Assembly: GCA_905479915.1 (NCBI GenBank)
Contig: CAJQOH010000070.1
Location: 1 to 42,409, forward strand
Reading direction: 5' to 3'
From: an uncultured Flavobacteriales bacterium
GTDB taxonomy: Bacteria; Bacteroidota; Bacteroidia; Flavobacteriales_E; Vicingaceae
DNA length: 42,409 nucleotides
How positions within the stretch are numbered: the stretch's first letter is position 1; every line of letters begins with the position of its first letter. The notes below the pieces were generated by a model that was not told the DNA's origin, made no database searches, and saw only the letters and a list, made by a program, of their open reading frames with translations. This document shows positions 5,547-6,676 of the stretch, in pieces. The position numbers and the translations under genes are program-made.

Positions 5547-5570
5547 TGATAAAAATCTTTTATCAAATTT
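5547..5570 (+). terminator. Weak hairpin after DUF2147 gene
   Basis: An 8-bp inverted repeat (TGATAAAA / TTTTATCA, 3-nt loop) eight bases after the stop codon, followed by AATTT. The stem is AT-rich, so termination would be weak. Confidence 0.35.
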
Positions 5571-5604
5571 CTTTGTTGCTTTATAAATTTTTGAAAAAAA
5601 GAAC

Positions 5605-5612
5605 TATATTTG
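5605..5612 (+). promoter_or_regulatory. -7 promoter box of tRNA-His
   Basis: TATATTTG matches the Bacteroidota -7 consensus TAnnTTTG exactly and lies 12 bases before the tRNA. TTTG/TTG sequences occur upstream at 5572-5578 but the spacing is longer than the usual 19 or so bases. Confidence 0.55.
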
Positions 5613-5624
5613 CCGTCCTTAAAT

Positions 5625-5699
5625 GGTGGTTGTAGCTCAGTTGGTTAGAGCGCTGGTTTGTGGTGCCGGAAGTCGTGGGTTCGAATCCCATCTTCCACC
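5625..5699 (+). tRNA. tRNA-His (GTG), acceptor stem mismatched
   Basis: Cloverleaf with D stem GCTC/GAGC, anticodon loop TTGTGGT (anticodon GTG at 5660-5662), T arm GTGGG-TTCGAAT-CCCAT and the extra 5' G expected for tRNA-His at 5625 opposite C5699. CCA is not encoded. In the acceptor stem, GTGGTTG (5626-5632) faces CTTCCAC (5692-5698). This leaves two adjacent U-U oppositions at pairs 5-68 and 6-67, while the other five pairs are good. The 3' part (from 5684) is duplicated exactly downstream. Confidence 0.93.
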
Positions 5700-5704
5700 C
5701 TTAA
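5684..5704 (+). repeat. 21-bp direct repeat, copy 1 (3' end of tRNA-His)
   Basis: Runs from the T loop of tRNA-His through its 3' end to TTAA. The same 21 bases recur without mismatch at 5856-5876. A duplicated tRNA 3' end is the usual footprint of site-specific integration by a tyrosine recombinase; here it would be the tRNA-proximal att-like site. Confidence 0.85.
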
Positions 5705-5708
5705 AATG

Positions 5709-5739
5709 AAAGTCGATCTTTTTTGATCGACTTTTTTTT
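5709..5739 (+). terminator. Terminator of tRNA-His
   Basis: A 10-bp perfect stem (AAAGTCGATC / GATCGACTTT) with a 6-T loop followed by a run of T to 5739, starting ten bases after the tRNA: a classical intrinsic terminator. Confidence 0.9.
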
Positions 5740-5855
5740 GTGCTAAAAAATTAATTGAGCTCGCTCAAGATTGATTTAGAAGGGCAAAAAAATGAGCGAT
5801 AGCAAACTTTCATTTTAATGAAGGCCCAACAGAAGACATAGGAATCATTATAAAT

Positions 5856-5876
5856 AATCCCATCTTCCACCCTTAA
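5856..5876 (+). repeat. 21-bp direct repeat, copy 2 (att-like)
   Basis: Exact second copy of the tRNA-His 3' end, 172 bases downstream of the first. The bases between contain only the tRNA terminator and about 115 bases with no gene. No integrase is in the window, so any element that used the site is gone. Confidence 0.85.
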
Positions 5877-5887
5877 CAGTATTCGAA

Positions 5888-6676
5888 TTATGGCGTTATT
5901 AATATTGAGTGTTCACTCTTTGCATAGGCTCCAAAATAACCCACTGCTTTATCTCCGCTTAAATTTGTTGTTGGATTCCCTGGTACATCCCCACCCTGAG
6001 ATGAACTTACAGCGGTAAAATACCTGAAGTTCGTTTCATCAACAGACAACAGTTGTATTCTAGCAGTTTCTCCTGCTAGATAAGTTACTTCAAATATTGG
6101 TAAAAAGGTTGAAGCTCCATCAATAGCATCATCCGACCAATTAACAAAACCATCTTTTTGCTCTTGGCCTAAAAATACCTTCATCCGATAATAATTTCTA
6201 TAATTTAAAGAATCTGTAAAATGACAAAACACTCTGTATTCTGCTTCTTCAACAGGTCCAAAACCAACATCTTCTTGGTAAGTAATAGAATCAATTTCTG
6301 TTCTAGGGTGCATAAAAGAAGATGCTGTAATTACTTCTCCATTTATATTTACACTCAACCCATAAGTTCTTCCAGAAACACCACTTAATGTCGGGTTGGT
6401 ATAATATCCTGGTGATACTTCGGATAAGGTATAAACTGTTCCTGTACCATCGGTAATTTGAACAACAGCATTTGTTATTTTTTCTATAGGATCATTGTTA
6501 TCAAATGGTCTGGTTTTAGACAACAAAACAAAGTTATCTCCTAAACTATCGTGAACAATACCTTCAATAACAAAAAGAGATTCAGATTCATCCAAATCCA
6601 AATCAATTTCTTTCTCACAAGAGAATAAAAGAATTGCAGTACATGCAATGGCGGCAAATAATCTAAGTGTTTTCAT
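5888..6676 (-). CDS. DUF4249 family lipoprotein, partner of TonB receptor
   Basis: A 262-residue outer membrane lipoprotein candidate. The signal peptide ends in the lipobox LLFSCEKE (Cys about residue 20) followed by acidic residues. The mature part begins with an Ig-like beta-sandwich (FVIEGIVHDSLGDNFVLLSK... NAVVQITDGTGTVYTL) typical of DUF4249. These proteins are commonly encoded with a TonB-dependent receptor and probably act as its surface partner in nutrient uptake, although a substrate cannot be named. It starts five bases after the receptor stop, so both form one minus-strand operon. It ends at the 21-bp repeat region. Confidence 0.8.
   Translation of the reverse strand: MKTLRLFAAIACTAILLFSCEKEIDLDLDESESLFVIEGIVHDSLGDNFVLLSKTRPFDNNDPIEKITNAVVQITDGTGTVYTLSEVSPGYYTNPTLSGVSGRTYGLSVNINGEVITASSFMHPRTEIDSITYQEDVGFGPVEEAEYRVFCHFTDSLNYRNYYRMKVFLGQEQKDGFVNWSDDAIDGASTFLPIFEVTYLAGETARIQLLSVDETNFRYFTAVSSSQGGDVPGNPTTNLSGDKAVGYFGAYAKSEHSILITP

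Follow-up and report, generated by a model that had tools for sequence, protein, structure and literature searches.

Short gene-free units behind bacterial tRNA genes: a 172-bp insert at the 3' end of a Flavobacteriales tRNA-His gene

Results

The tRNA-His gene and its repeated 3' end

The window, by which we mean the whole stretch of 42,409 nt that was analysed (contig C70 of genome G000, an uncultured Flavobacteriales bacterium), contains a tRNA-His gene with anticodon GTG, placed at 5626-5700 by ARAGORN, and the G-1 of this tRNA is encoded (base 5625 = G). An earlier sequence-only reading (the original prediction) had claimed an exact 21-base recurrence 172 bases downstream, two adjacent U-U oppositions in the acceptor stem, and a terminator hairpin between the copies. 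Letter comparison confirmed the recurrence, as the 21 nt at 5684-5704 equal those at 5856-5876 with no mismatch and a start-to-start distance of 172; the acceptor stem has 5/7 standard pairs with U-U at 5-68 and 6-67, and one terminator lies between the copies, at 5708-5735 (Table 1). Across the 3.57-Mb genome, with up to 3 mismatches allowed, the repeat matches only at these two sites of the window. The insert measures 172 bp, its ends being ambiguous inside the repeat (5684-5855 up to 5705-5876), and no ORF of at least 60 aa lies within 5701-5855, so that no integrase gene is present inside.

Table 1. Features at and behind the tRNA-His gene of the window
Feature	Position	Strand	Remark
tRNA-His(GTG), G-1 at 5625, U-U at 5-68 and 6-67	5625-5700	+	
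21-nt repeat, proximal copy (tRNA position 58 to tRNA end, plus TTAA)	5684-5704	+	
Outer arm, left (TTAAAATGAAAGT)	5701-5713	+	13/13 complementary to 5806-5818
Terminator hairpin followed by T tract, between the copies	5708-5735	+	1 found, 0.2 expected in shuffles
Imperfect hairpin, left arm taking in the T tract of the terminator	5733-5792	+	folds
Outer arm, right (ACTTTCATTTTAA)	5806-5818	+	pairs with 5701-5713
Inverted bit of the tRNA 3' end, weak (GAAGACATAGGAATC), which the folds pair with the distal copy	5832-5846	+	folds, letters; by itself not significant
tRNA 3' end, distal (displaced) copy	5856-5876	+	
DUF4249 gene, convergent neighbour outside the insert	5888-6676	-	

The outer arms enclose the terminator and the imperfect hairpin, and 0/300 shuffles gave arms as good; the arms of the imperfect hairpin (5733-5755 and 5770-5792) are 74% complementary. 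The 172 bases fold beyond 200/200 shuffles (z -3.6 as DNA, -3.7 as RNA), the next 172 bases after the unit give a z of -0.2, and a comparable unit behind tRNA-fMet of the same genome gives -6.9. When 5560-5960 was searched with Rfam, the tRNA alone exceeded its cut-off. Two candidate origins were set aside by reading: the arms do not sit at both ends of the unit, as they would in an element with terminal inverted repeats, and the copies continue into the genomic trailer (TTAA) and not into CCA, as would be expected of a copy made from mature tRNA.

Among 88 non-His tRNAs in the collected loci, a downstream copy of the last 16 nt was found in 6 and an upstream copy in 0 (up to 2 mismatches within 1.4 kb at most, some flanks being shorter), and therefore such repeats of tRNA ends are not due to chance. 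The corresponding count for His loci, 23/78 downstream and 6 upstream, is not a rate, as these loci were partly picked for having copies and the 6 upstream cases are tandem tRNA genes of the Halomonas group.

Occupied and empty sites in relatives

Full-length tRNA-His genes were found in 12 of 14 genomes of the genus. Four of these 12 loci (G000, G001, G004, and G007) carry two copies 168-178 bp apart, two (G011 and G012) have a unit-like stretch in which the distal copy is absent by reading, one (G002) has a 1.96-kb insert in the tRNA-His gene, and five (G003, G005, G008, G010, and G013) lack any copy within 1.5 kb when up to 3 of 16 positions may mismatch. Occupied sites were aligned with empty ones for G004 versus G003 and G010, and for G031 versus G032. 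In these alignments the empty site corresponds to the distal copy, followed by the native terminator and the neighbour, and the interval left over is the insert, of about 170 bp in these relatives and located between the proximal tRNA 3' end and the native 3' end. Because the insert is clean in these comparisons, the repeat is an insertion footprint, and the alignments demonstrate that tRNA-end repeats in the relatives result from clean insertion of units. The proposal that the tRNA 3' end had been a site of integration was thus borne out, both by these pairs and by the gene-carrying insert in the same gene of G002. The window unit presumably arose in the same way, even though its closest unit-free relative, G013, gives no base-exact empty site; the terminator of G013 resembles the proximal one of the window by eye.

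The insert of G002 (L089:176-2150, contig C47) lies between tRNA-His and a displaced 3' copy. Its two genes have matches to HipA_C and Couple_hipA as well as to the PADLOC candidate models PDC-M03A/B, a repeat of about 20 bp was read near both ends, and no integrase was found among the ORFs of the 1.96 kb. The tRNA-His tail of G022 (L090:5642-6016, contig C1) holds an insert of 390 bp that carries a GIY-YIG gene (Pfam E 2.5e-14), the frame of which, as listed, also spans the preceding tRNA-His gene, and long hairpins follow. This insert suggested a GIY-YIG endonuclease as the mover, a candidate that was rejected since only 3/30 GIY-YIG loci of the genus (the fetched part of the matches listed) contained a tRNA, which is too few; one of the three adjoins the unit-bearing tRNA-fMet of G000. 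Separately, locus L097 (around G014:C14:79136, minus strand) shows a row of 3' ends resembling those of several tRNAs, the last of which is an exact tRNA-His end, and ARAGORN found no tRNA in this locus.

Units behind other tRNAs and in other bacteria

Of the 31 tRNAs in the window genome, tRNA-His and five others are followed by a copy with at most 3 mismatches in 16 nt, the five being tRNA-fMet (+152, exact), tRNA-Trp (+51, exact), tRNA-Arg tcg (+124, 1 mismatch), tRNA-Leu caa (+144, 3 mismatches), and a second tRNA-Met (+100, 3 mismatches). The fMet and Arg units possess outer arms of other sequences than those of the window (AACGGAGAAC; AAAATCACAAAA). With an exact pattern, the fMet arrangement was found in 1/46 genomes of the family, and for this reason the fMet unit looks recent. 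In 10/25 units, outer arms of differing sequences were better than at least 98.6% of shuffles (p ≤ 0.0134); p was above 0.05 in 14/25, including all 7 units of the type B described below.

When genome_contigs was scanned for tRNA-His genes with a copy about 155-185 bp further on, 19 records were returned. Six of these (L133, L136, L139, L141, L144, and L148) are whole tRNA genes repeated in tandem in the Halomonas group and were dropped from the unit counts; the other 13 are units and belong to Flavobacteriales (including Psychroserpens, Crocinitomix, and Vicingus) and to one member each of Cyclobacteriaceae, Bacteroidales, Clostridia, Oscillospiraceae, and Patescibacteria. The similar spacing among L130-L148 is selected by the scan pattern itself; in genus and family, where the pattern did not select it, spacings are 168-178, 117, and 390 bp. 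Tandem forms occur in G017 (117 bp) and in Crocinitomix (two units 178 bp apart), and tRNA-Trp arrays have periods of 64 and 71-72 bp; in L223 (G206:C30), five tRNA-Trp tail units form an array with 71-72 bp between them. These short, hairpin-rich, gene-free 'tRNA-tail units' are therefore a class rather than a single case, and more general than first reported.

Two exact patterns had no match in viral_contigs, and phage records gave 3 short matches only (11%-14% query cover, E 0.05-0.6) and no unit. None of 138 plasmid records covered 80% of the query, and among the 20 matches listed the match ends by query base 84, within the tRNA part. In the portions of the open-access literature available to us, we found no description of such units in Bacteroidota.

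Fixed start and pairing with the target

The copy begins at tRNA position 58 in 19/25 units, while the remaining starts are at 56 (three times, in the Clostridia record L140 and the Oscillospiraceae record L143) and at 57, 59, and 54 (once each). In the gene-carrying tRNA-His inserts, identity starts at 54 (G022) or, by reading, before it (G002), and their enzyme may thus differ from that of the units. The T loop and the T/acceptor junction are named as crossover subsites of tRNA-targeting integrases in the part of PMC4383910 that was available.

In a set of 24 distinct units, pairing of the tail was better with the end of its own tRNA than with the ends of other tRNAs (Wilcoxon 0.0055), with 11/24 ranking in the best tenth; against shuffled tails, p was below 0.05 in 7/24, and the 24 units together gave a Fisher value of 2e-6. 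The tail was taken as 65 nt, a length that omits the inverted bit of E. coli (90 nt) and of three Clostridia-type units (71-108 nt). By itself, the inverted bit of the window is not significant: the tail pairs better with 55.7% of the other tRNA ends than with its own, and 26.5% of shuffled tails perform equally well; in an exact-run test its p was 0.84, with values below 0.05 in just 5/25 units.

Type-B units and the E. coli repeats

Some units share a second layout, type B, consisting of GAGAAG and a palindrome that we take to be REP-like. At up to 3 mismatches, the 46 family genomes contain 12 sites of this pattern, a count that misses the more divergent tRNA-Thr units of L028 and L029. At 7 sites GAGAAG is kept, and each of these follows a tRNA at a distance of 15-139 nt (three tRNA-Trp, two tRNA-Leu, one tRNA-His, and one tRNA-Gln) and adjoins a copy of the 3' end of that tRNA; the 5 sites that do not have GAGAAG show no tRNA within the fetched locus. 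G000 has two sites of this pattern (C22, behind tRNA-Trp, and C48), and the pattern does not occur in the window. A sample of 395 genomes from the phylum yields 10 matching sites in 5 genomes, G000 included; in the other four, the loci read follow tRNA-Trp in three cases and tRNA-Thr in one, and two of these loci are arrays. At L212 and L218, in G027 and G000, the palindrome lacks GAGAAG; by reading, it follows the end of apparently the same protein gene, and roughly 20 bp of that gene end recur behind it.

The tyrT repeats of E. coli have long been known. In E. coli K-12, the tyrV tail has exact 19-nt copies at +160, +338, and +516, with a period of 178 bp, and rttR is annotated there. Each copy is preceded by GGGGAAGGAT-GAGAAG, where GGGGAAGGAT is the reverse complement of part of the tRNA end and ends 90 nt from the copy. 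Type-B units share GAGAAG beside an inverted bit with these repeats, a link that was noticed after the fact.

U-U pairs of tRNA-His

All 12 full-length tRNA-His genes of the genus read GTGGTTG/CTTCCAC, and both U-U pairs are thus also present in the 5 members that have no downstream copy at all. In a class sample (395 genomes, 82 tRNA-His genes matched by a pattern that was free at positions 5, 6, 67, and 68 and fixed elsewhere), at least one U-U was found in 70, both in 25, and pairing at both positions in 10. Among the 31 tRNAs of the window genome, tRNA-His alone has 5/7 acceptor pairs and four others have 6/7. The U-U pairs are a separate trait that is widespread in tRNA-His of the class, and the acceptor mismatch is not special to the lineage that bears the element. 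A link of the pairs at 5-68 and 6-67 to HisRS or to modification is conceivable, and a search of the literature, as far as its texts were available, returned no fitting paper on U-U mispairing of tRNA-His.

Discussion

It is an evenly balanced proposition, and the one that we prefer, that a non-coding 172-bp insert entered the tRNA-His gene at the T loop, and that it is a cargo-less, site-specific mini-element of the class of tRNA-tail units. Such an insert would have brought a new tRNA 3' end together with a terminator, both of which would keep the tRNA working, and the original 3' end would be the copy at 5856-5876. The cargo-free unit would most likely have been put into the T loop by a putative trans-acting recombinase. 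Strand exchange would be carried out by a site-specific enzyme, most simply a putative tyrosine integrase of the T-loop subsite, for which the inverted bit and the tRNA end may form the crossover site, and a route through a folded single strand would suit the small size of the unit. No recombinase lies inside the window unit, and none was tied to any unit among those examined. DNA circles of 50-180 bp would be hard to form, which counts against a mini-element.

The original prediction had explained the mispaired acceptor stem by a hybrid tRNA, that is, by recombination that imported a foreign 3' end. An insertion of this kind does in principle replace the 3' end; nevertheless, this cause is very improbable, since the same U-U pairs occur in 12/12 genus loci whether units are present or absent, at least one is found in 70/82 class loci, and the two copies of the tRNA 3' end in the window are identical. 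Because the pairs are common with and without units, local recombination is unnecessary to explain them. The prediction had named two observations that together would speak against it, namely that all relatives share the U-U pairs and that no element is ever found at this site; the relatives do share the pairs, whereas elements do occur there.

Alternatively, the two ends, 172 bp apart, might be all that remains of a large prophage or integrative element that formerly occupied tRNA-His and whose cargo was lost. A tRNA followed by its displaced 3' fragment is the classical signature of such elements in the available part of PMC4383910, and the insert of G002, with its HipA-like genes and a repeat of about 20 bp near both ends, occupies the same gene. 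Yet separate deletions would hardly yield similar sizes and hairpin layouts across species and tRNAs, and no decaying integrase was seen in the stretches read by eye, which makes this origin unlikely. We are more doubtful still about a processed small RNA gene similar to rttR, in which the tRNA transcript reads on into an RNA with a tRNA-like tail that is kept for its function. It would account for the annotated rttR among the 19-nt copies of the E. coli tyrV tail, each with GGGGAAGGAT 90 nt before it, and for the RNA fold of the window unit (z -3.7), but the distribution is patchy (5/12 genus loci have no copy), the terminator stands ahead of most of the unit, and the tRNA alone reached the Rfam cut-off. 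A similarly low degree of belief goes to a local duplication, in which slippage or template switching at hairpins repeated the tRNA tail in tandem and the copies later diverged: tandem forms exist in G017, Crocinitomix, the tRNA-Trp arrays, and E. coli, and some copies extend beyond the tRNA end, but duplication alone explains neither the start at position 58 over several tRNAs nor the GAGAAG motif common to the tails of different tRNAs.

If the preferred reading of a mini-element is extended, the window unit, the type-B units, and the E. coli tyrTV/rttR repeats could form one cross-phylum class of gene-free mini-elements that home to T-loop position 58, each with a copy and a partial complement of its target, and that move as a folded single strand by means of a recombinase acting in trans. 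We regard this extension as speculative and rather unlikely to hold as a whole. Each insertion would restore the tRNA, so that arrays could grow harmlessly. Such a class would give the E. coli tyrT repeats a setting and would allow a test of whether elements that carry no gene can home to tRNA genes. It could be overlooked, as the filters of at least one island finder remove tRNA fragments that are short and have no integrase, according to the accessible text of PMC4383910. The U-U at 5-68 or 6-67 in 70/82 matched Bacteroidia tRNA-His genes is, for its part, a simple and checkable oddity of tRNA biology.

Comparison with known systems

In common with tRNA-targeted integrative islands of the Islander class, the window has an intact, restored tRNA and a displaced 3' fragment downstream in the same orientation, but the unit is 172 bp long and has no integrase. 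Islander rejects candidates below 2 kb or without an integrase and filters lengths to 2-200 kb (PMC4383910, in the part available), and the window unit falls outside its definition on both counts. Tycheposons are likewise mobile elements associated with tRNA, but they span 4-200 kbp with cargo and have a xerD recombinase in the described cases (PMC10872708, available in part).

The resemblance to the E. coli tyrTV/rttR repeats is one of layout, and no sequence likeness is claimed for the window unit. In both, the tRNA 3' end is repeated at 160-178 bp in a small unit, tandem in E. coli, and the copy starts at position 58 (by reading in E. coli); each E. coli unit has an inverted bit of the tRNA end, of which the window unit shows a weak candidate. 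The window unit thus has the copy from position 58 at 100-180 bp downstream that defines this type. The E. coli repeats differ in that the inverted bit is 90 nt ahead of the copy, no terminator is seen by eye right after the tRNA, and tpr is annotated inside. As for REP palindromes, rttR is listed as REP-bearing in the accessible part of PMC12306157. Type-B units hold a REP-like palindrome, but theirs sit at tRNA tails with a tRNA-end copy, and by reading the window unit does not have this palindrome. Finally, tRNA-tail units resemble the attC cassettes of integrons, which are folded sites with paired arms of variable sequence, but differ from them in that their target is a tRNA.
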